64,000 bases of DNA, from NCBI GenBank assembly GCA_028284065.1, contig JANQSJ010000014.1, positions 372,001 through 436,000 of the forward strand, given 5' to 3'. Both the position numbers and the translations under genes were made by a program. The notes beneath the pieces were generated by a model. It saw only the letters and a list, made by a program, of their open reading frames with translations. It had not been told where the DNA came from and searched no databases. The stretch's first letter is position 1; each line of letters begins with the position of its first letter. Source of the DNA: Parvularculaceae bacterium. GTDB lineage: Bacteria; Pseudomonadota; Alphaproteobacteria; Caulobacterales; Parvularculaceae. Positions 27,822-40,168 of this stretch are shown here, in pieces.

Positions 27822-30815
27822 GTGACCCGGTCCGCCTCTCGCATATCGGTCAAGACGCAGCTCTTCACGACGCTCGCCCTCATCGCCGGCGCGACCTGCG
27901 TCATCGCGGGATGGGCCGCCTTTGCGCTCGCGACCGGGCATGTGGCCAAGCGAACCGTCGAAGACGAAACCCGTTTCATGGTCGAGCGCGGGCGCGGCGT
28001 CGACCTTCCATTTGATCAGATCGCATTCGCTCACCAGGCCGCGGAAAAGTCGTTCACGCAGTTGCAAGCGTCGCTTGACGACCAATCAGTCGACGCGCTC
28101 TTCAAAGAAGCCTTTCGCAAACGCGACGACGGCACCTACCGCCTGCCTGAAAGCTATTTCGATGGCGCGACGCTCGGCGGGCGTCCAATTTTCGGGATGG
28201 CCGGATATGTCTCGCCAAAGCCGATGACGCCGGCGCGCAAACGCGCAATCATCGCTGGTCTTGAGGCCGTAAGGAGCGTCGGCGCCAGCTTCGAAGGCGC
28301 GGTCGCTTCACTGGCGCTGGCGCTGCCGGATAACGATCTCCTGATCTTCGCGCCTGACCGGCCGGACCGACTGACGTTCTACCGCGAGGACGCCCCAGCG
28401 GATTTCGGCGTTTGGCGGCATGTTGAGAACCTCAAGCGCAACGCTGAATGGCCGCGCGGGTCGATTTGCGACGGCCTCGCTCAGGTAGGCTGGGACCCGA
28501 CCGGGCGCTCGCTCGCCGCCACCTGCCAGACCGCGACCCTGCGCGAAGGACGCGCGATCGGCGTATGGGACACCACGATACCGCTGAACCGGCGGATGCT
28601 TGATCTTCTCAACACGGAATCGCGCGCTGCGTCTTCGCTGGTGGCGACGCAGGCGGGAGCGCTTGTGCTGGCGCCCGAACTTGGATTCGCGGCGACCGCC
28701 GACGCGAAAGATGTCGCTGCGGCGTCGGAACGCTATGGCGTCGCGTCGATCGTCGCGCAGGCCATGGCGCGCGATGCGAAGGCGGGCGCGTTCATCACCA
28801 AGGACCGCCACTGGCTCGCCCGCTTCCACAAGTTCGATAATCCGGACTGGGTGCTGATCGACCTCGTTCCGCAAAGCGAGCTTATGCTGACGGAGATCAG
28901 GGCCCCGGCCGCAATCGTGGTCATTCTGCTATTCAGCCTTCTCTTCCAGGCGCTCGCCGCGAGCGTCGTCACGCAGCGCCAGGTGATTCATCCGATCAAC
29001 ATTCTCATCGGGCGCTTCACGCGTGAAGGCGCGATTGAGCCTGAGAAGGAGTGCGTCGAGGCGGAAGCGGTCTCAATGCGCAAGGATGAAATAGGCGAGC
29101 TGTCGCGCACGCTTTCCGACGCGCGCCGGAGTTACGATGACCTCATCGCCGATCTTGAGGAGCGGGTCCGTGAACGGACAGAGAAGCACCAGCGCGCCAG
29201 CGAAGCCAAGTCGGCGTTCCTGGCGAACATGAGCCATGAAATCCGGACGCCAATGAATGGCATTCTCGGAATGGCGGAGCTTCTGATGAACACGGACATG
29301 GACGATAAACAGTCCGTTTACGCGTCGACAATTTACAGCTCGGGATCGGCGCTATTGACGATCCTCAACGACATTCTCGACTTCTCCAAGATTGAGGCCG
29401 GCAAGCTTGAGCTTGATCCGCATCCGTTCAATCTGCGCCAGGCCGTCGAAGATGTGGCGACGCTTCTTGGGCCGGTCGCCCGAAGCAAGGGCGTCGAACT
29501 CGTTATGAGGTACGCGCCGGAACTGCCGGAACATGTGGTCGGCGACGCCGGCCGCATTCGCCAGATTCTGACAAATCTCGTGGGCAATGCGATCAAGTTC
29601 ACCCATGAGGGACATGTCATCATCGACTTCAGCGGCGCGGAAGAGAACGGCGCCGCAGCCATCAGGGTCGACGTCATCGACACCGGCATCGGCGTCGCGC
29701 CGGACAAGCTGGAGGTGATCTTCGAGCAGTTCACCCAGTCGGACGGCGCGACAACGCGCAAGTTCGGCGGCACCGGACTGGGCCTGTCGATCACAAAGAG
29801 CCTCGTGTGCGCCATGCAAGGCGAGATCGGCGCAACGTCGACGCTCGGAGAAGGGTCGACATTCTGGTTCACCCTGCGGCTGCCTACGACGACCCCGCTG
29901 GCGCCGCGATCGCCAAAAATCGGGGATTTGTCAGGCGTCTCGGCGCTTGTCGTCGACGATCTCGAAATCAACCGACAGATCCTGAAAGAGCAACTGGCGA
30001 TTTGGGGGGTCGCGACGACCTGCGTCGACAGCGCCGAAGACGCGATCGCCCGGCTGGAGGAAGTCAAGGCGTCCGGCGCGCCGGCGCCGATAATCCTCTT
30101 GGACTATCAAATGCCCGGAATGGACGGACTTCAGTTCGCGCGACAACTCCGCGCGTCGCAATCAGACCGAACTGATGGCGTCGATGTGCGGTTCATCGTG
30201 CTGTCGTCCGCCGACGACGACCGCGTCGCCGGCGAGTTCAAGGCGCTTGGCGCGACGGACGTCCTGTCGAAACCCGTCGCCATGCAGGCGTTGGCCGGCG
30301 CCATTTCGGCAGCCGCAGCGATCGACGGAAACAGCGAGGGCGACGCCGCGGACGACGAGAGCGCGTCCAGCGCGACTCTTCCGGCCGCAAGTCCACCGCC
30401 GGCGCCCGCTGAGGACAGACGAAAGATTCTTGTCGCGGACGACAATGCGGTCAACCGCATGGTCATCGAACACATGGTCGACCGCCGCCGGTTCGAACTT
30501 CTGTTTGCTGAAGACGGGCGCGAGGCGGTCAACATCTTCCGAAGCGAGACGATCGATCTCGTCTTGATGGACATCTCCATGCCGGAAATGGACGGCGTCG
30601 AGGCGACCAAGGCTATTCGCTCGCTCGAGGCGAAGGCGAAGCGCCGCGCAACGCCGATCATCGCGCTCACCGCTCACGCCATGAGCGACGACCGGGCGCG
30701 CTTTCTGAGTGCAGGCATGGACGATTACCTGCCGAAGCCTGTGAGCCAGACCGCCCTTTCGCGATCGATCGGCAAATGGCTTTGCAGCGACGACGACGCT
30801 TCTGAAGTCGCCTGA
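27822..30815 (+). CDS. Hybrid sensor histidine kinase with two receiver domains
   Basis: The 997-residue protein starts with GTG. It has a first membrane helix (about 13-38), a long periplasmic sensor region to about 360, a second helix (about 364-386), and a HAMP-like linker with a coiled coil to about 455. The kinase core has H472 in NMSHEIRTPMNG and a HATPase domain with DTGIGVAPDKL and KFGGTGLGLSI. Two receiver domains follow, with phospho-acceptors near D761 (LLDYQMPGMDG) and D917 (LMDISMPEMDG). No HPt domain is fused, so phosphate would pass to a separate protein. The ligand is unknown. Confidence 0.92.
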   Translation: MTRSASRISVKTQLFTTLALIAGATCVIAGWAAFALATGHVAKRTVEDETRFMVERGRGVDLPFDQIAFAHQAAEKSFTQLQASLDDQSVDALFKEAFRKRDDGTYRLPESYFDGATLGGRPIFGMAGYVSPKPMTPARKRAIIAGLEAVRSVGASFEGAVASLALALPDNDLLIFAPDRPDRLTFYREDAPADFGVWRHVENLKRNAEWPRGSICDGLAQVGWDPTGRSLAATCQTATLREGRAIGVWDTTIPLNRRMLDLLNTESRAASSLVATQAGALVLAPELGFAATADAKDVAAASERYGVASIVAQAMARDAKAGAFITKDRHWLARFHKFDNPDWVLIDLVPQSELMLTEIRAPAAIVVILLFSLLFQALAASVVTQRQVIHPINILIGRFTREGAIEPEKECVEAEAVSMRKDEIGELSRTLSDARRSYDDLIADLEERVRERTEKHQRASEAKSAFLANMSHEIRTPMNGILGMAELLMNTDMDDKQSVYASTIYSSGSALLTILNDILDFSKIEAGKLELDPHPFNLRQAVEDVATLLGPVARSKGVELVMRYAPELPEHVVGDAGRIRQILTNLVGNAIKFTHEGHVIIDFSGAEENGAAAIRVDVIDTGIGVAPDKLEVIFEQFTQSDGATTRKFGGTGLGLSITKSLVCAMQGEIGATSTLGEGSTFWFTLRLPTTTPLAPRSPKIGDLSGVSALVVDDLEINRQILKEQLAIWGVATTCVDSAEDAIARLEEVKASGAPAPIILLDYQMPGMDGLQFARQLRASQSDRTDGVDVRFIVLSSADDDRVAGEFKALGATDVLSKPVAMQALAGAISAAAAIDGNSEGDAADDESASSATLPAASPPPAPAEDRRKILVADDNAVNRMVIEHMVDRRRFELLFAEDGREAVNIFRSETIDLVLMDISMPEMDGVEATKAIRSLEAKAKRRATPIIALTAHAMSDDRARFLSAGMDDYLPKPVSQTALSRSIGKWLCSDDDASEVA

Positions 30816-31296: not shown

Positions 31297-33366
31297 ATGA
31301 GCGAGACCATCGCGCCGTCGAGATCCATGGCTGTCCTTGGCGTCGTGGCGGTGGTGTTTTTCCTCGCGCTCCTGCCGTTCGAATTGATTCCCGAAATCCC
31401 CGTCGACATCGACGCCAAGCCGTTTTTCCTGCCGCTCGCCTTTTGCGCGCTCCTGCCGGCGCGGAAAACGGCGTTGGCGATCGGACTCGGCGTCGCGCTT
31501 GGCGAAGGCCTGCGTGACCTTATGGAAGGCTATGAGCTCGACGACCCGATCGGCTTTATCGGCTATGTCATCGGCTTCTGGGCGGCGAGCCATTTCTATG
31601 CGCTGGGACCAACGAACAAGCTGATCCTTGCCGTGGGTGCCATCCTCTGCGCCTTCATTCAGGCGTCGTTCGAAGCCTCCAGTTTCCTGATATTCGGCGC
31701 CGAGGCCGTAAGCGTCGCCGCGTGGAGCGCGTTTGGCAATACGATCAGCCATGGGATTATCTGGGGCGCAATCCCGCTGTTCTTTCTCACGCCCGCTCTC
31801 CACGGCCGGTTTGAGCGTCATCTCGGCTTTGAGCCGCGCGGAACGCCGGCTCCTGAGCCGCTCGAAATCGCGATTGACGCGCCTGTCGTATTGCTCAGCG
31901 GCGTCTCCTTTCGACCGCCGGGCAAAGTTGAACCAGTCCTTGTGGGCGTCTCAATAGAAATTCGTCCCGGCGAGTGCATTGGCGTCCTGTCCGCGAATGA
32001 TGCAACGGATACGGACGGCGCCGCGCAATGGCTCGCCCGTATCGCCGCCGGCGTCGCGCCAACTGCGACCGGCGGCGACATTGTCGGCCATGTGGGTGCG
32101 GCGGCGCGCGCCTCTTTCGTGTCGGGGCGCCCTGCGGACCTTTTCACCCAACCGCGCGCGGTGCAGGAGGTCGCCGCGGCGCTCATCGCCGACGGCGCCG
32201 CGCCCGCCGAAGCGCTCGCCCGCGGCCGTGAGGCGCTCCTGGGCGTTGACTTGGGCGACGACAAGGCCGACGCCTATGTGTGGGAGCTCGATCGGCGCGA
32301 ACAGGCGCTCGTTCTCGTCGCGGCCGCGAAAGTACGGGAAGCGGATCTTCTCGTCATCGACACTATCGCCGACGCCATCGGGCCCGACTGGCGCGATGCG
32401 CTGGCGCCGCTTCTGGCGGCGCGGCCCGAAGGCGCGGCGACCATCCTGATTGACCGCGAGCCGTCTCGGCTCGAGGGCCTCGTCAATCGAACGATTGCGC
32501 TTAAAACGGGGACGCTCGTCGATCCGCCCGTCTTTGAGGACGCGCATCCGCCGAACGCCGTTCCGGATACTGAAATCATGATGCGCGTTCGGGACGCGGC
32601 GCCGGAAGACGCTCGTGGAGCGCCTGAGGACGGACCCGTCCGGGTGCCGACGCTGCAGACGAGCCGCAGCAGATGGTGGGCGGCGCGCGATCCGCGGGTG
32701 AAATGGCTGATCTTCGTCGCGCTCCTTATGATGATCTATCTTGCGCCCGACTGGCGCTGGATGGCGGGCGTGTGCGCGCTCGGCCTCGTGATGGTCCGCA
32801 CCGCGCAGCCGCCGCTCGGCTGGCTCGGCTTCGCGCTTTTCGTTCAGGTCCCGAACGTTATCGGCCTTCTCCTCCTGCCGCTGCTTGGCGGCGGCGCGGC
32901 GACGGGCGAGGAGTTCGCGTTCGGATTGCGGCTCGGCTTCGGCTGGGTCGCGGCGATCCTGTTCGGCGTCAGCCTTTTGTCGACCATGGACCCGCCAGCG
33001 ATCGCCGCGGGGCTGCGAGGCGTCGGCTTGCCGCGGCGGTTCTCGTTCTCCGTGGGTTACGCCTTCGTGCTGATTTACCTGAGCGCGGCGGACTTCATTA
33101 AGGCGATGTCGGCGACCGGGCTCGACGACGGCCGTCTGTCCCTGAAGCGGCCGTTCGCGTTGATACGTTCGGCCCCTTCCCTTGTCGCGCCGGTGGTCGA
33201 AACCGTCGCCCGGCGCGGCGGCGTCATGGCCATCGCGCTTGAGGCGAACAAGGCTGATCGCCGACCCGCCCCCCATGCGTTCGGCGCCCCAGCGGTTTCG
33301 GATTTCGCCCTCGCTCTTGGCGCGCTAACGCTTCTTGGAGCGGCCGTCGCAGCGCGCCTCGGATGA
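31297..33366 (+). CDS. Single-chain ECF-type transporter-like protein with degenerate ATPase domain
   Basis: The 689-residue protein has three parts. Residues 10-170 are five or six membrane helices resembling an ECF S-component. Residues about 195-410 look like an ABC ATPase (VLLSGVSFRPPG...IRPGECIGVL) but lack function motifs: the P-loop site reads LSANDATDTDG, the signature site reads LDRREQALVL, and Walker B reads LLVIDTIADA without the catalytic Glu. Residues about 460-689 match EcfT/CbiQ (ARDPRVKWLIFVALL, GLRGVGLPRRFSF), with ALEANKAD where the coupling Ala-Arg-Gly motif is expected. It should be membrane-bound. Substrate and energy source are unknown; an ATPase from elsewhere may be needed. 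Confidence 0.75.
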   Translation: MSETIAPSRSMAVLGVVAVVFFLALLPFELIPEIPVDIDAKPFFLPLAFCALLPARKTALAIGLGVALGEGLRDLMEGYELDDPIGFIGYVIGFWAASHFYALGPTNKLILAVGAILCAFIQASFEASSFLIFGAEAVSVAAWSAFGNTISHGIIWGAIPLFFLTPALHGRFERHLGFEPRGTPAPEPLEIAIDAPVVLLSGVSFRPPGKVEPVLVGVSIEIRPGECIGVLSANDATDTDGAAQWLARIAAGVAPTATGGDIVGHVGAAARASFVSGRPADLFTQPRAVQEVAAALIADGAAPAEALARGREALLGVDLGDDKADAYVWELDRREQALVLVAAAKVREADLLVIDTIADAIGPDWRDALAPLLAARPEGAATILIDREPSRLEGLVNRTIALKTGTLVDPPVFEDAHPPNAVPDTEIMMRVRDAAPEDARGAPEDGPVRVPTLQTSRSRWWAARDPRVKWLIFVALLMMIYLAPDWRWMAGVCALGLVMVRTAQPPLGWLGFALFVQVPNVIGLLLLPLLGGGAATGEEFAFGLRLGFGWVAAILFGVSLLSTMDPPAIAAGLRGVGLPRRFSFSVGYAFVLIYLSAADFIKAMSATGLDDGRLSLKRPFALIRSAPSLVAPVVETVARRGGVMAIALEANKADRRPAPHAFGAPAVSDFALALGALTLLGAAVAARLG

Positions 33367-33377
33367 CGCGCGGCGCC

Positions 33378-34565
33378 TTATTGCGATGCGATGAGCTGCG
33401 CCGCGGCGTCGGCGATGACTTTCTCTTCGTCTGTCGGAATAACCCACGCCGACGGCGCGCCGGCTCCGGCGGAGATCCGTCGCGCGCCGACGCCTTCGTT
33501 TGCGTTGGCGTCGAGCGCAAGCCCCAGCCATGCGCACCGCTCAACGACGCGCGCGCGGGTCAACGCGGAGTTTTCGCCGATCCCAGCCGTGAAGACGATA
33601 GACTGCGCGCCGCCGAGAACCGCCGCAAGTCGGCCAATCTCCGCAGCAATATGATAGACGAAGTAGTCGATCGCCTCCTGCGCGCGCGGATCGTCGCTCG
33701 CTTCAAGATCTCGCATGTCGCCGCTGATTCCCGACAACCCGAGAAGCCCCGATTGCTTATATAGACAGGCGGCCACTTCGTCGGCGGACATACCGCGATC
33801 AGTCAGGAAACTGAGAATGACGCCAGGATCGAGCGCGCCGCAGCGCGTGCCCATGGGCAGGCCGTCAAGCGCAGTGAAGCCCATCGTCGTGGCGACGCTT
33901 CGCCCGCGCTTGATCGCGCACATGGACGCCCCGGCGCCGAGATGCGCGACGATCATCCGCTCCCGTTCCCCGTCGGGGATCAACTCACGCGCTGCGTTCG
34001 CGATGTAGTCATAAGATAATCCGTGGAACCCATACCTCAAAACGCCCTCATCGAAGTACCGCCGCGGCAGGGCGAACATTTGCGACACCCGTGGCTGCGT
34101 TCGGTGAAAGGCGGTGTCGAAGCAGGCGATCTGAGGCGCGTCCGGCCAGACGTCGGCCGCCGCCCTGACGCCGGCGAGATTGTGGGGCTGGTGGCCGGGC
34201 GCGAGCGGAATGAGTTCGGCGAGCTTCGACTGATTTTCCGCGGTGAGGCGCACGGGTTCGGCGAAATCCCGCCCCCCATGGACGATCCGGTGGCCGACCC
34301 CGGCGATCCGCTCGCCACGAAGGGCATCGCGGATGTGGCCGAGCGAGAAACGAAGCGCCGCCCCATGGTCCGCGCCTGACGCCGCGTCAACGGGGACGGC
34401 CCGCGCCGCGCCGCCAACCTCGATCTCGAACGCCGGACTTGCGCCAAGGCCGGAAAAGTGCGCCTTCAGCGCGCGCGTAGCGGCGGCGCCCCTCCCATCG
34501 AACCGAAAGGCGGCCGCCTTGATGCTCGACGAGCCAACATTCAGTATCAGGATGGCGCCGCTCAA
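33378..34565 (-). CDS. ackA: Acetate kinase family protein
   Basis: The 395-residue protein has the N-terminal signature ILILNVGSSSIKAAAF with N9, GVGHRIVHGG around the substrate arginine, the phosphate-binding VAHLGAGASMCAI, and FTAGIGENSALTR near the C-terminus. It interconverts acetyl phosphate and ADP with acetate and ATP. It overlaps the preceding maoC-pta fusion by 4 bases and is its likely partner. Acid specificity (acetate, propionate or butyrate) cannot be read with certainty. It converges on the ECF-like gene. Confidence 0.94.
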   Translation of the reverse strand: MSGAILILNVGSSSIKAAAFRFDGRGAAATRALKAHFSGLGASPAFEIEVGGAARAVPVDAASGADHGAALRFSLGHIRDALRGERIAGVGHRIVHGGRDFAEPVRLTAENQSKLAELIPLAPGHQPHNLAGVRAAADVWPDAPQIACFDTAFHRTQPRVSQMFALPRRYFDEGVLRYGFHGLSYDYIANAARELIPDGERERMIVAHLGAGASMCAIKRGRSVATTMGFTALDGLPMGTRCGALDPGVILSFLTDRGMSADEVAACLYKQSGLLGLSGISGDMRDLEASDDPRAQEAIDYFVYHIAAEIGRLAAVLGGAQSIVFTAGIGENSALTRARVVERCAWLGLALDANANEGVGARRISAGAGAPSAWVIPTDEEKVIADAAAQLIASQ

Positions 34566-35983
34566 TGACCTAAACCCCCGGCGTCTTTGGCAGCTTGAGC
34601 GGCCGCCTTGTGCGCAGCGAACAGCTTGGCGAGCGCGCTCGCCGCAACGCGGGCCTCGACGCCTTCGGCGCGGCTTGTCAGGATGATCGGCGCGGCCGCG
34701 CCGACGACGACGCCCGCAGCCACGGCGCCCGCTAGATAGTCAAGCTGCTTCGCCACCATATTCCCGGCCTCAAGGTCAGGCACGAGCAGGATGTCCGCGT
34801 CGCCGGCAACGTCGGACGTGATGCCCTTCGCCGCCACGACCTCCGGCGAGACCGCATTGTCGAAGGCGAGCGGGCCGTCAATCAGCCCTCCGACAATCTG
34901 GCCTCGATCGGCCATTTTGCAAAGCGCCGCCGCATCTATGGTGGAGGCGACCGGCGGATAGACGGTCTCCACGGCGGAGAGGACGGCGAGCTTCGGCGTC
35001 TCGACGCCGAGCGCGCAGGCGAGATCGATCGCGTTCTGGGCGATATCGCGCTTTGCGTCGAGGTCGGGCGCGATATTGATTGCGGCGTCGCTGATATAGA
35101 GCAGTTTCGGATAAGCGGGCGCGTCCATTACATAGACATGGCTGACCCGCCGGTCGGTGCGAATGCCATTGGCGCGCGAAACGACCGCGCCCATCAGCTC
35201 GTCCGTATGCAGCGCGCCCTTCATGAGCGCTGCGACATCCCGCTCACGGACAAGCGCCACGGCTGTCTCGGCCGCGGCGTGGCTGTGGGGCGCATCGACA
35301 ATCTCAAAACCTGAGATGTCGGCGTCGGCCGCCGCGGCCGCCATCGCAATTTTGGCTTTGGGCCCGACGAAAACGGGCGCTATCAGGTTGCGCGTCGCCG
35401 CCGCCAACGCGCCCTTGATGGAGATCGCATTGGTCGGATGGACGATCGCGGTCCGCAAAGGCTCGCCAGCCTCGGCGCGCGCCACGAGGTCTTTCAGACG
35501 ACTGCCCGTCTCATGCACATAGGCTTCGGGACGCTTGATCGCAGGCCGGGAGATCTTTTCGGACGGCGCGATAACCTCCGCCTCGCCAACTATAACATCC
35601 TCGCCCGCCTGGTTGACGCAAGCGCATTCGAAGACGATCCGGCCGCCCGCTTTTTTTTCCGCCGCCCGGACCCTGACCGTCAGTTCATCACCCACCCGCA
35701 CCGGCCGGCGGAAAGACAGGTTCTGCGACACATAAATTGTTCCCGGCCCCGGCAGCTCCACGCCGAGCACGGTTGAAATGAGCGCGCCGCCCCACATGCC
35801 GTGCCCGATGACGCCGTCGAACCCGGCGTCGCGGGCGTAGGCTTCGTCGAGATGAGCGGGGTTCACATCGCCCGACATGCCGGCGAAGAGGGCGATATCG
35901 TTGTCGGTCAGAATACGGCGGATCGAGGCGACGTCGCCCACCGCAATCTCGTCATAGGTCCTGTTCTCAATCATCTCCGACAT
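34562..35983 (-). CDS. Bifunctional MaoC-type enoyl-CoA hydratase/phosphate acyltransferase
   Basis: The 473-residue fusion has a MaoC hot-dog domain at about 5-140, with the hydratase motif ALFAGMSGDVNPAHLDEAYA, and a phosphotransacetylase domain at about 170-465 (VGPKAKIAMA, LMKGALHTDELMGAV, VLSAVETV). The first part may hydrate crotonyl-type CoAs; the second exchanges acyl-CoA and acyl phosphate. The fusion is common in alphaproteobacteria, where it sits with ackA and fabI, as here. Overlap with ackA indicates coupled translation. Confidence 0.92.
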   Translation of the reverse strand: MSEMIENRTYDEIAVGDVASIRRILTDNDIALFAGMSGDVNPAHLDEAYARDAGFDGVIGHGMWGGALISTVLGVELPGPGTIYVSQNLSFRRPVRVGDELTVRVRAAEKKAGGRIVFECACVNQAGEDVIVGEAEVIAPSEKISRPAIKRPEAYVHETGSRLKDLVARAEAGEPLRTAIVHPTNAISIKGALAAATRNLIAPVFVGPKAKIAMAAAAADADISGFEIVDAPHSHAAAETAVALVRERDVAALMKGALHTDELMGAVVSRANGIRTDRRVSHVYVMDAPAYPKLLYISDAAINIAPDLDAKRDIAQNAIDLACALGVETPKLAVLSAVETVYPPVASTIDAAALCKMADRGQIVGGLIDGPLAFDNAVSPEVVAAKGITSDVAGDADILLVPDLEAGNMVAKQLDYLAGAVAAGVVVGAAAPIILTSRAEGVEARVAASALAKLFAAHKAAAQAAKDAGGLGH

Positions 35984-36040
35984 GGCGGACGTCTCCTCAA
36001 GGCGCGGGGGCGCAGGGCGTCTCGCGCCGGCGCAGCGATA

Positions 36041-36802
36041 TTAGGCGATGGTGTTAACGCCGTAATCCACATAGTGCACGCCGCCGGTGATGGCACGGGC
36101 GCCATCGCCGGCGAGGAACGCGGCGAGCGCTCCTACTTCTTCGATTGTCGCAAGCCGGCCGCCCGGGGCCTCGGCGGCGGCCGCTTCCATCAGTTCATCG
36201 AAATAGGCGATGCCGGACGCGGCGCGCGTCTGGATAGGGCCCGGCGAGATCGCGTTGACGCGCACGCCGCGCGCGCCGAGATCGGCGGCGAGATAGCGCA
36301 CCGACGCTTCAAGCGCGGCCTTCACCGGTCCCATAATGTTGTAATGATCCACGACGCGTTCCGCGCCATAATAGGAAAATGTGAGGATCGATCCGCCCTC
36401 GGGCATGAGCGCCGCCGCCATCCGCGAGAGGCGGATGAACGAGTAGCAGGAGACGTTCATCGCGGTCGCGAACCCCTCCTCGGAGCAGTCGACCACCGAA
36501 GCGTGCAGGTCGTCTTTCGGGCAGAAAGCGACCGAATGAACGAGGAAATCTATCCGCCCCCAGACCTCTTCGATCCGCGCGCGCGCCGACTCGATGTCGG
36601 CCTCAAGCGAGACGTCGACCTGAAGCAGGTCGCGGGCGCCCACCGCCTCTGCGACCGGAGCGGCGTAAGCCCTCGCCTTGTCGCTCTGGCAGGTGAGCAT
36701 CAACTCCGACCCTGCGTCCGCGAAGGCGCGCGCGCATCCCGCCGCGATCGACTGCTCGTTGGCGACGCCCACAATGAGACCGCGCTTGCCCTGCAGCGAC
36801 AT
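36041..36802 (-). CDS. fabI: Enoyl-ACP reductase FabI
   Basis: The 253-residue protein is an SDR-fold enoyl reductase. It has the FabI-type nucleotide motif GLIVGVANEQSIAAG, the active-site run HYNIMGPVKAALE with Tyr and Lys spaced as in FabI, and VRVNAISPGPIQTRAASGI. It reduces enoyl-ACP with NADH in type II fatty-acid synthesis. Start ATG 36802 has AGGATGGA upstream; ATG 36811 is also possible. It heads a fabI, maoC-pta, ackA unit with 57 bases to the next gene, so it may be a second, specialised FabI. Confidence 0.92.
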   Translation of the reverse strand: MSLQGKRGLIVGVANEQSIAAGCARAFADAGSELMLTCQSDKARAYAAPVAEAVGARDLLQVDVSLEADIESARARIEEVWGRIDFLVHSVAFCPKDDLHASVVDCSEEGFATAMNVSCYSFIRLSRMAAALMPEGGSILTFSYYGAERVVDHYNIMGPVKAALEASVRYLAADLGARGVRVNAISPGPIQTRAASGIAYFDELMEAAAAEAPGGRLATIEEVGALAAFLAGDGARAITGGVHYVDYGVNTIA

Positions 36803-36889
36803 GGTTTCCATCCTGATTACAACTCTATCCAATCGCGGAGCAGTCAGCCGTCAGGTCGAAGCAGCTCCGCGCGCTGGCGCGCGCAACGC

Positions 36890-38089
36890 CTATTGGCCGA
36901 GCCGCGCCCACAAATCGCTATAGGCTTCGCAATAGGCGTTGCCGGTGGCCACATATGGCTGACATGCGACGACGTAATTCTCATAGGTCGTCGCGCCGCC
37001 GCCGCAAAGGGATTGGAACGCGCGCGCCTGAGTCTGAAACGCGGCGATCGACGCATTGTACTCTTCAAGGTCGCGATTGTAACGCTCCAGCATGTTGCGT
37101 ACGGATGCGGGCGGCTGGCGTCGATCGCGCTCGTATCGCTTTGAGCGGCGCTCATAGTCTTCGCGCAGGGCGTCCAGCTCCACGCGGCGCGCGTCGATAT
37201 TGTCGCGCGCGGCGGTGAGGTCCGCCGCAGAAGCGGCGCACCCGGAAAGCTGGCCGACGGTGAGGCTCGGCGGCGCGGGCGCCTGCGGCGCAGCGGGCGC
37301 GCCCGGCTGTGCGCCTGATGTTGCGCCCTCCTGCGGCGGGACAGACCTCGACGTCACAAGTTCAAACCGTATCGGCAGCTTGAAGGCGAGTTCGTTATAG
37401 GCGGTGCCGTCCGGGAAGCTCGGCAGACGACGGACCCTGCGGATCGACCTGCGAATTTCGCGGTCGAGGACCTCAAACCCGGTTCCGTATTCGAAGTACC
37501 AGTCGGAGATGCGGCCGTCGCGGGTCGCCGTGATCACCACCATGGCGCTCCCCGACGCCTCCTGGCGGCGCGCCTCCTCCGGATAAGACAGCTCCCGCAG
37601 CACGGCGAGCCGCGCATCGGACAGCCATTCCTGAAGCAGGAGGTATTCATCGAGCGACAGGCTGCCGCCGCTGCCGCCGCCAAGCCACATTTCCGGCACC
37701 GCCTGTGGCTGGATATCGGGAAGGTCGGGCGTCTCGCGCGGTTTGTCCGGCGGCGCGGGCGGGGGCGAATCCGAGGCGCGCTCCTCGATGACGGGGATCT
37801 CTTCCTCCGGCTCCGGCGGCGGCGGCGCTTCGGCCTCCGGCGGCTGCACCAGGGGGGCAAGGCGCACGCCGATTTCATTGACCGGCGCGTCGGCGACGCC
37901 GACATCCTCTGGCGTCGGATCAATCGGCGGCAGGAATGGGAGAGCGGCGGCAAGGTGCATTGCAAGGGCCGCCCCCGCTCCAAAAAGCCAGAAGCGCACG
38001 CTTGGTTCCGGCGAGGAATCGTCGCTCCAGTGTCGCTCTGCGGCTCCCGGCGTCGCCTCGCCAGACCTGACCGTTTCAGGACGCGCCAT
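36890..38089 (-). CDS. TonB-like energy-transducing protein with C-terminal coiled-coil/cysteine extension
   Basis: The 399-residue protein has one N-terminal membrane helix (about 32-53), a proline- and glutamate-rich spacer (60-130), and a TonB C-terminal-type domain at about 150-245 (LSYPEEARRQEASGSAMVVI, FPDGTAYNELAFKLPIRF). An added region at about 270-399 contains a coiled coil rich in Arg/Glu and four cysteines (C276, C357, C374 and C384, approximate). TonB normally ends after its domain, so this extension is unusual. The start overlaps the exbD stop by one base (TGATG). Confidence 0.8.
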   Translation of the reverse strand: MARPETVRSGEATPGAAERHWSDDSSPEPSVRFWLFGAGAALAMHLAAALPFLPPIDPTPEDVGVADAPVNEIGVRLAPLVQPPEAEAPPPPEPEEEIPVIEERASDSPPPAPPDKPRETPDLPDIQPQAVPEMWLGGGSGGSLSLDEYLLLQEWLSDARLAVLRELSYPEEARRQEASGSAMVVITATRDGRISDWYFEYGTGFEVLDREIRRSIRRVRRLPSFPDGTAYNELAFKLPIRFELVTSRSVPPQEGATSGAQPGAPAAPQAPAPPSLTVGQLSGCAASAADLTAARDNIDARRVELDALREDYERRSKRYERDRRQPPASVRNMLERYNRDLEEYNASIAAFQTQARAFQSLCGGGATTYENYVVACQPYVATGNAYCEAYSDLWARLGQ

Positions 38090-38496
38090 CACGCGCCCCC
38101 GCCGACGGTGACGAGGGCCAAATACTGCGCGCCCGCCTCGCGCAGAAGCTCCATGACTTCAATTACCCTCGCCGCATCCGCGTCGGCGTCCGCCTTTAAC
38201 TGGATCGAACTGTCTGGCCGCACCGCAAACCACAAGGTCGCGGCGCGCACGAACTCGCCGTCATCCGGCATCACCTGGCCCTGGAAGGCGACATCGCCGT
38301 CCGCGCCGACCAGCACCACAACGTCCTCGACTTCGCTAGCAAGCTCGGTGTCCGAACGCGGCGGCGTCACCGCCACGGGCGCCGGACGCTCAATCGCGCC
38401 CGCCAGCATGAAGAAGACGAGCAGTATAAAGACGACGTCGATCAGCGGCGTGATGTTCACAAGTTCGCGGGGCGGGCGCGGCGCGACGATCTTCAT
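38089..38496 (-). CDS. ExbD/TolR-type biopolymer transport protein (second copy)
   Basis: The 135-residue protein has a short cytoplasmic N-terminus, one membrane helix, and a periplasmic domain. The proton-channel aspartate is D20 in NITPLIDVVFILLVFFML. It works with ExbB to use the proton motive force on TonB. Its start overlaps the previous exbD by 4 bases and its stop touches tonB, so the unit is translationally coupled. Confidence 0.92.
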   Translation of the reverse strand: MKIVAPRPPRELVNITPLIDVVFILLVFFMLAGAIERPAPVAVTPPRSDTELASEVEDVVVLVGADGDVAFQGQVMPDDGEFVRAATLWFAVRPDSSIQLKADADADAARVIEVMELLREAGAQYLALVTVGGGA

Positions 38497-38906
38497 GGCG
38501 CGCCTCCGGCCTCTTCGGGACCGGAAAAGGACACCGACCGCGCGCCGGCGCGACGCGCCGCGTCATAGATGCGGATGGCGTCCTGGAGCGGCACGCCCTC
38601 TTCAGGCCGCACGAGAAAGACCCTGCCCGGATCGATCGCGACAATCTCCGCCACGGCGGGGCCGAGATCCGATTCGTCGATTGGACGGGTGTCAAACGTG
38701 AACGACCCATCGGGCTCAAGCCCGATGACGATAGCGCCTTCGCTGGTCTTGACGATTTCGGTTTCGCGCGGCGTTTCCACCCGGATCAGCCGATAACTCG
38801 CGAAACTCGTCGCCAGCATGAAGAACACAAGGAGAATGAACACCACGTCGATGAGCGGCGTAATGTTCAGGACCCTGACCGCATCTTGCGCGCGCCGGAT
38901 ACGCAT
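38493..38906 (-). CDS. ExbD/TolR-type biopolymer transport protein (first copy)
   Basis: The 137-residue protein shares the core NITPLIDVVFILLVFFML (D20) with the next gene but has a different periplasmic domain that includes VFLVRPEEGVPLQDAIRIYD. Two different ExbD proteins in one operon suggest mixed ExbD dimers within a single ExbB pentamer. It starts 25 bases after the exbB stop. Confidence 0.92.
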   Translation of the reverse strand: MRIRRAQDAVRVLNITPLIDVVFILLVFFMLATSFASYRLIRVETPRETEIVKTSEGAIVIGLEPDGSFTFDTRPIDESDLGPAVAEIVAIDPGRVFLVRPEEGVPLQDAIRIYDAARRAGARSVSFSGPEEAGGAP

Positions 38907-38931
38907 GGCGTCAACCCTTTCGCGAGCAGCT

Positions 38932-40026
38932 TCAGTCGTCGCTCTCTTTCGGCGCCCGCCGGCCGGTGGCGTAGAGATCGGCGGTGAAGACGCGCGTCGC
39001 CGCGTTCTCCATGTGCTGGCCCGCGACGTCGACCGTGCGCTGAAGCCAGGTGAAGAACGCCGCCGCCGGGATCGCGACGCTGAGGCCCGCCGCCGTCGTC
39101 AGAAGCGCCTCCCAGATGCCGCCCGACAGGATAGCAGGGTCGACCCGATCGCCGGCGTTCTCAAGCTGCTGGAACGCTTCGATCATGCCAAGAACGGTGC
39201 CGAGCAGCCCAAGCAAGGGGCTGATCGTTGCGATCAGGCTGAGGAGCGGCAGGCCGCGCTCCAGCCCGTCGAGCTTGATCTGGGCGATGCGCTGCACCTC
39301 CTCGCGCACCTGCGCGTCGGCTGCGCCGAGCGACTTGCCGCGCAGCGCCGTCTCCATCACTCGCGCAACGACCCCGCGCCGGCGCGCGACGAAATCGAGA
39401 GCATCGTCCGTGCGCCCTTTTTCGATCATGCTTCCGGCTTTTTCGATAAAGCGATGGTCACCGGCGCGCGCCGCAGCGAATTGCAGCAACTTCACAACAA
39501 TAATCGCAAGGCTGACGATTGAGAGAAGCGCCAGAATGACGATGATTGGACCGCCCGCCTCGACCAAATCCGCCGCCGGTTGCAGCCGACCCCAGTCGCG
39601 GGCCGTCGCCTCGTCTTCCGCGGCGAGGGCGCCTTCGTCGTCGACCGGGCCGACGCCTTCCTGAAGCGCATCGGCGATATCTCCGGAGTCCGGCGCGTCC
39701 GAGGCCGCCGTCTCGCCGGGGTCATCCAAGTCGCCGTCGCGCGGTTCGCCGTCCATCTGATCGCCGGGCGCTTCATCGCTGATCAGCTCCGCGCCCTCTG
39801 TCTGGGCGGCGGGCTTCAGCAAGGGATCATTATCTGCATCTGGATCGTCCGTGAGCGTTGCGGCGGAAGCCTCCGCCGCCGTCTCGTCCACGAGCGCCGC
39901 CGTTTGCGGCCCGTCGTCACGCGCGTCATCCTGCGCAGCCGCCTGAACGCCGACGCAGAAAATTGCGCATGAAGCCATTAGAGCCGCGGCCCAATCCCGC
40001 GACCGATTGGTCTGATGCTTCGCCAT
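38932..40026 (-). CDS. ExbB/MotA/TolQ-family proton channel protein
   Basis: The 364-residue protein has a signal-like segment at about 12-32 and a very acidic periplasmic region of about 110 residues rich in Asp, Glu and Ala. The three-helix ExbB core follows (first helix about 158-183; second and third in LLSLIATISPLLGLLGTVLGMIEAF and LLTTAAGLSVAIPAAAFF). The acidic pre-domain is much longer than in E. coli ExbB (244 residues). I place the start at ATG 40026; 40056 is also in frame. It heads the exbB-exbD-exbD-tonB operon. Confidence 0.9.
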   Translation of the reverse strand: MAKHQTNRSRDWAAALMASCAIFCVGVQAAAQDDARDDGPQTAALVDETAAEASAATLTDDPDADNDPLLKPAAQTEGAELISDEAPGDQMDGEPRDGDLDDPGETAASDAPDSGDIADALQEGVGPVDDEGALAAEDEATARDWGRLQPAADLVEAGGPIIVILALLSIVSLAIIVVKLLQFAAARAGDHRFIEKAGSMIEKGRTDDALDFVARRRGVVARVMETALRGKSLGAADAQVREEVQRIAQIKLDGLERGLPLLSLIATISPLLGLLGTVLGMIEAFQQLENAGDRVDPAILSGGIWEALLTTAAGLSVAIPAAAFFTWLQRTVDVAGQHMENAATRVFTADLYATGRRAPKESDD

Positions 40027-40168
40027 AGCCCCCGCCCGATTTACTCCCGTTCCCAAATGCCACTCTTTGTTGACACTGGTATGTCAACTGCAAGTCATTG
40101 TCATTAGCGGACGGCGCCAATCCCATCCTCGGATGACGCGCGAAGCGCGGACCTTGCTCCAAAGGGGA

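Follow-up and report, generated by a model that had tools for sequence, protein, structure and literature searches.

We analyzed a 64,000-nucleotide stretch of a Parvularculaceae bacterium contig (JANQSJ010000014.1), hereafter the window, in which positions 31297-33366 of the forward strand form one uninterrupted open reading frame (ORF) with no internal stop. The encoded 689-residue chain carries, in this order, an S-component-like domain, an ABC ATPase domain (A), and an EcfT domain (T), and the intact 689-codon frame together with the domain assignments confirmed the single-chain S-A-T arrangement reported in a preliminary description of this DNA. The GC3 of the S, A, and T domains (0.75-0.83) was similar to that of the neighboring genes (0.77-0.78), and all indels of the ORF were in frame in the alignment. 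A set of ExbB, ExbD, ExbD, and TonB genes (36890-40056, minus strand) lies 3.5 kb from the fusion gene. The features are as follows:

31297-33366, plus strand: S-A1-T fusion ORF, 689 aa (open frame; GC3 0.75-0.83 in S, A1, and T)
31297-31836, plus strand: S-component-like domain, residues ~1-180, about six predicted helices (identity to relatives; 43/48 invariant positions kept)
31882-32520, plus strand: degenerate ABC ATPase domain, A1 ortholog, residues ~196-408 (A1 match; ABC fold; 23/40 invariant positions kept)
31987-32019, plus strand: P-loop destroyed, reading LSANDATDTDG at residues 231-241, five residues inserted (alignment)
32281-32304, plus strand: destroyed signature WELDRREQ, residues 329-336 (alignment)
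32347-32364, plus strand: Walker B LLVIDT without the catalytic Glu, D355-T356 (alignment; haloarchaeal A1 likewise D-T)
32521-32637, plus strand: linker in place of the relatives' A2 domain (A2 present in P0002, L044, L045, and L035-L038)
32638-33363, plus strand: EcfT domain, residues 448-689, joint at the old EcfT start (family profile; 42/54 invariant positions kept)
33118-33129, plus strand: first coupling-helix tip, residues 608-611, RLKG/KVKG in relatives and GLDD here (alignment)
33232-33252, plus strand: second coupling-helix tip, residues 646-652, LEARG/LxMRG in relatives and LEANK here (alignment)
36890-38092, minus strand: TonB-like protein (PF03544, 5e-8)
38089-38496, minus strand: second ExbD copy, ~50% identity with its counterpart at the loci of the relatives (Pfam, identity)
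38493-38906, minus strand: first ExbD copy, 48-49% identity with its counterpart at the loci of the relatives (Pfam, identity)
38932-40056, minus strand: ExbB, 60-64% identical to ExbB at three relatives' ECF loci (Pfam, identity)

The isolated T domain matched Pfam CbiQ at an E value of 2.6e-5, just below the curated cut-off, and a profile built from six family members matched the solved EcfT chains 4huq_T (3e-10) and 5d3m_D (9e-6). These profile matches firmly support the assignment of the T part as a true EcfT homolog. The middle domain had no match to Pfam ABC_tran, and its NCBIfam ABC matches were weak. The strand and helix order of this domain in the AF2 model, the overall confidence of which was low (51.9), was of the ABC type, and Foldseek returned 571 PDB matches at E<=0.001, with the 50 listed all being ABC proteins; the ABC fold proposed earlier for the middle region was thus upheld within the confidence of that model. 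The AF2 models were built from four and seven sequences, and both were of low confidence. The middle domain matched the A1 domain of the Parasphingopyxis relative with 35% identity and 100 bits but the A2 domain of that relative with only 35 bits, and the single ATPase domain was therefore assigned as A1, not A2.

The helical membrane S domain (residues ~1-180) had no Pfam, NCBIfam, or PDB sequence match, and a profile search detected no PF12822 S-component in the genome. The identity of the S domain was 60-68% to three alphaproteobacterial relatives, 51% to Rubrobacter, and ~40% to haloarchaea. It shares an operon with A and T in the relatives and, in Rubrobacter and the haloarchaea, stands alone as a ~190-aa gene directly upstream of the AA and T genes. 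The four best Foldseek matches of a low-confidence S model (pLDDT 48.7) were all ECF S-components, at E values (0.65-0.86) that are not statistically significant. The AxxxA site of helix 1 reads AVLFA in haloarchaea and AVLFF or AVVFF in the alphaproteobacterial set and is non-canonical in the window protein. The relatives reveal what appears to be an unannotated S-component family that spans Alphaproteobacteria, Rubrobacter, and haloarchaea.

One full relative, from a Parasphingopyxis MAG (L031/L047), was obtained in a scan of public genome contigs, and two more (L044 and L045) were obtained from 300 relatives of the Parasphingopyxis genome. In these three Sphingomonadales-type relatives, S, A1, and A2 form one ORF, and EcfT is encoded by a gene of its own directly behind it, the start codon (ATG) of which overlaps the stop codon of the S-A1-A2 ORF. 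Plasmid records added five loci, from Rubrobacter radiotolerans, Haladaptatus halobius, Halorussus limi (two), and H. aquaticus, at which S, AA, and T occupy three neighboring genes, with S annotated as "hypothetical protein" (S genes in an operon with AA and T at L035 6986-7552, L036 6926-7525, L037 6935-7528, and L038 6935-7528). No relative was found in viral contigs, and the S profile had no match in 397 other genomes of the window's order or in 384 others of its class.

The three Sphingomonadales-type loci share with the window orthologous S, A1, and T together with a linked ExbB-ExbD-ExbD-TonB set, but their EcfT is separate and keeps the ARG motif, A2 is still present, and each of the two ATPase domains has its P-loop lysine. 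The Rubrobacter and Haladaptatus/Halorussus plasmid operons (L035-L039) contain the same S family (40-51% identity) and the same T family, but they consist of separate genes, with LSGGQ in A1, a DE Walker B in A2, and no Ton set seen. The A2 domain is absent from the window ORF, and a close A2 copy was not found in the genome. The joint falls exactly where EcfT begins in the relatives (V-RVPTLQT in the window versus M-KVPTLHT). An ancestral S-A1-A2 plus EcfT lineage is a well-supported explanation of the window protein as judged from these comparisons. Such a locus, linked to an ExbB-ExbD-ExbD-TonB set, would have lost its A2 domain, the remaining S-A1 would have been joined in frame to the EcfT start, and A1 would have lost nucleotide binding; we infer this order of A2 loss, fusion, and motif losses. 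The S-A-T order is real but derived, and the architecture of its relatives was missed in the preliminary description, which also overlooked the A2 loss. In other respects, its interpretation stood in part: the data support a dead ATPase and a degraded EcfT coupling motif within an S-A-T fusion.

The P-loop of the relatives ends in (A/S)-G-K-(S/T), whereas the window protein reads SANDATDTDG with an in-frame insertion of five residues, and the signature reads WELDRREQ instead of WELSGGQ or WELPxxxQ. The alignment thus agrees with the earlier reading that both the P-loop lysine and the signature motif have been lost. The loss of the catalytic Glu was also correctly noted, but it is unspecific: the A1 domains of Rubrobacter and the haloarchaea already have D-S or D-T after Walker B with LSGGQ intact, whereas their A2 domains have D-E and a degenerate signature. 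The competent Walker B of these members therefore sits in A2, and the window protein kept the other half. P-loop lysines were intact in all the compared relatives, including 7/7 A1 domains, and the S-A-T order was found only once. Homologs with an intact lysine had been named beforehand as evidence that would count against the proposal; they were present, but rather than refuting the loss, they show that it is, by alignment, specific to the lineage of the window protein. In L044 (9534-11744) and L045 (9784-12057), the catalytic Glu after Walker B of A2 is replaced by Lys or Arg, and A1 has no LSGGQ. These ATPases may be impaired too, and ATPase residues may have been lost repeatedly in the alphaproteobacterial clade, of which the sample is tiny.

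The earlier claim that the Ala-Arg-Gly coupling motif is lacking from the EcfT part was borne out and can be extended, because the basic tip of the first coupling helix is gone as well. The invariant T positions that were lost include the K, G, R, and G of both tips. The identity between the window protein and its Parasphingopyxis relative was 34% in the coupling-helix stretch and 56% in the preceding membrane part, whereas the corresponding values between Parasphingopyxis and the other two alphaproteobacterial relatives were ~60% and 70-73%. Solved structures of ECF complexes show that arginines at the CH2 and CH3 ends bind aspartates of EcfA/A' (PMC4820897). The loss of both tips fits the loss of the ATPase because the tip arginines make these contacts, and the predicted losses of ATPase, nucleotide binding, and contact points are mutually consistent. 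Three defining features of ATP-driven ECF transporters were found to be absent, namely two ABC ATPase domains (only one in the window ORF), the Walker A lysine with the signature motif, and basic residues at both coupling-helix tips (GLDD and LEANK here). The window protein is therefore not a complete ATP-driven ECF transporter, although it descended from one, and we infer from its motifs that it is probably unable to hydrolyze ATP.

The S domain kept 43 of the 48 positions that were invariant in the other seven sequences, the T domain kept 42 of 54, and A1 kept 23 of 40; the binding domain has therefore been held, and the ATPase has not. On the window branch, changes at codon positions 1 and 2 amounted to 0.17 in S, 0.19 in the T membrane helices, 0.35 in A1, and 0.41 in the coupling helices, and they were below those at position 3 in every domain. 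The branch lengths of the window protein were 0.35 for S, 1.20 for A1, and 0.86 for T (Parasphingopyxis paths, ~0.19, 0.65, and 0.47). Branch length was rejected as a marker of ATPase decay because it is long in all three domains and does not single out the ATPase, as the count of invariant positions does.

On the basis of these findings, it is probable that the fusion protein has a function of some kind, and we lean, by a small measure, toward a de-energized ECF protein that would act as an ATP-independent carrier or a binding protein. The S domain, tethered to the T scaffold through a structural A1 remnant, would bind the substrate, which would then cross the inner membrane down its gradient unless the protein acts only as a binding protein; the linked TonB-ExbBD set would serve the outer-membrane step for the same substrate. 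Some S-components, such as solitary BioY and BtuM, have been reported to transport without an ECF module (PMC11109136), and by analogy with these precedents, ATP-independent carriage by an S-T protein is conceivable. A more specific form, an ATPase-free ECF unit in which S and T are covalently joined through a dead ATPase scaffold and mediate ATP-independent uptake, possibly by using a periplasmic substrate gradient built by TonB-ExbBD, is a tentative proposal that we hold somewhat more likely to be wrong than right. The single S-A-T case, the long branches in all domains, and the AF2 confidence of 51.9 weigh against the de-energized reading.

The main rival is a decaying gene that became non-functional after the A2 loss, its fused frame being a relic kept open by chance and a GC-rich composition. 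This explanation is unlikely but deserves serious weight: the fused state was seen once and offers no second case by which to gauge its conservation, every ATP-related motif is gone, S has also evolved faster on the window branch than on the Parasphingopyxis branch, and the A domains of relatives already vary at catalytic positions, two of them having Lys or Arg in place of the A2 Glu. In simulations of neutral drift, a GC-rich A1 stayed stop-free in 4-26% of cases at 50-65% residual identity, a chance that is not negligible, and the open frame is therefore not decisive. Nevertheless, 689 stop-free codons with indels all in frame, a GC3 resembling that of active neighbors, the deficit of position 1 and 2 changes in each domain, and the unequal retention of invariant positions, which points to continued selection on S, argue against decay. 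Artificial joining of S-A1 to T during sequencing or assembly is hardly credible; the S-A-T order is known from one genome only, but the genome is near-complete and the gene is placed 31 kb within a contig of 436 kb, the motif losses are spread across A1 and T beyond the joint, and the genome offers no second related sequence for mis-joining.

Two further alternatives accept a functional protein. If the S-T membrane unit were a receptor or transceptor, it would sense the substrate and signal without transport. The S-component fold is common to 5TMR receptors (PMC11109136), and the upstream gene encodes a hybrid histidine kinase (27822-30815); however, this kinase has no counterpart at the relatives' loci and is separated from the fusion gene by a 480-bp gap, sensing does not need EcfT, and no signaling domain is fused, which makes a receptor improbable. 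The idea, raised in the preliminary description, that another cellular ABC ATPase drives the T domain is disfavored and more improbable still. ATPase sharing is possible among ECF systems (PMC9973259), and the genome has 25 matches to the EcfA model, but all of them fall below its cut-off (TIGR04520), the lost A2 finds its best genome matches in ordinary ABC proteins (26-40% identity), and T has lost both basic tips. Genome-wide profile searches also detected no other PF02361 protein (EcfT).

The preliminary description stated that no accessory gene is adjacent, which is literally correct but passes over the conserved ExbB-ExbD-ExbD-TonB set. The same set directly adjoins the ECF genes in the three nearest relatives, divergently in two and co-oriented upstream in one. 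Short local matches aside, the next best ExbB in the 40 genomes of the family and order that were searched was only 43-44% identical. Because the Ton set and the ECF gene are jointly conserved, these data point to one putative system. Service of the outer-membrane step by this set would fit its absence at the Rubrobacter and haloarchaeal loci. ExbB, ExbD, and TonB are present and co-conserved; no receptor gene was noticed beside the ECF genes. The ExbB relatives in G008 and G064 were rejected as ECF-linked, as they sit with a TonB-receptor-like gene and others and with no ECF gene. In haloarchaea, the neighbors of the ECF genes include PhoU, PstSCAB, alkaline phosphatase D, and arsenic genes, which hints at a substrate that may be connected with phosphorus supply. 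No upstream riboswitch reached a curated threshold, the one ALIL match (E 0.37) being at chance level. The literature searched contained nothing on haloarchaeal phosphate-linked ECF or on Ton-linked ECF in Sphingomonadales.

On the current view, ECF systems, which are uptake systems of the vitamin type, require ATP to reset the S-component on the module. Group I ECF transporters (BioMNY and CbiMNQO type) resemble the window system in having a dedicated S with its own T and A, but the window protein lacks a competent ATPase and carries S and T on a single chain with what remains of A. The absence of an ATPase module is shared with solitary S-components (some BioY; BtuM); these lack T, whereas the window protein retains it covalently. 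We know of no settled transport mechanism for solitary S-components. The Listeria EetB-FmnA FAD exporter also repurposes ECF-type S and T subunits but still needs EcfA/EcfA' (PMC9973259). If the de-energized reading is true, a natural S-T fusion with a dismantled ATPase would provide a single-chain test of T's help in ATP-less translocation. The S family also merits attention for its phosphate-stress neighbors in haloarchaea and its dedicated Ton set in Gram-negative members.

Several minor observations were made at these loci. The interval from the ECF gene to the Ton set (window 33378-36832) holds genes for acetate kinase, MaoC-Pta, and FabI; this region is variable, because acetate kinase was not found in a well-covered genome of the same genus (G001). 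Within the family and order of the window, related ExbB-ExbD-ExbD sets (L079 8601-12230 and L080 8272-11797) lie beside TonB-dependent receptor-like, ApbE-like, and other genes and apparently belong to a different uptake system. In the haloarchaeal operons, EcfT is followed by a small conserved membrane protein without a Pfam match (L037 10214-10660, L036 10122-10568, and L038 10115-10561), which is a possible extra subunit.
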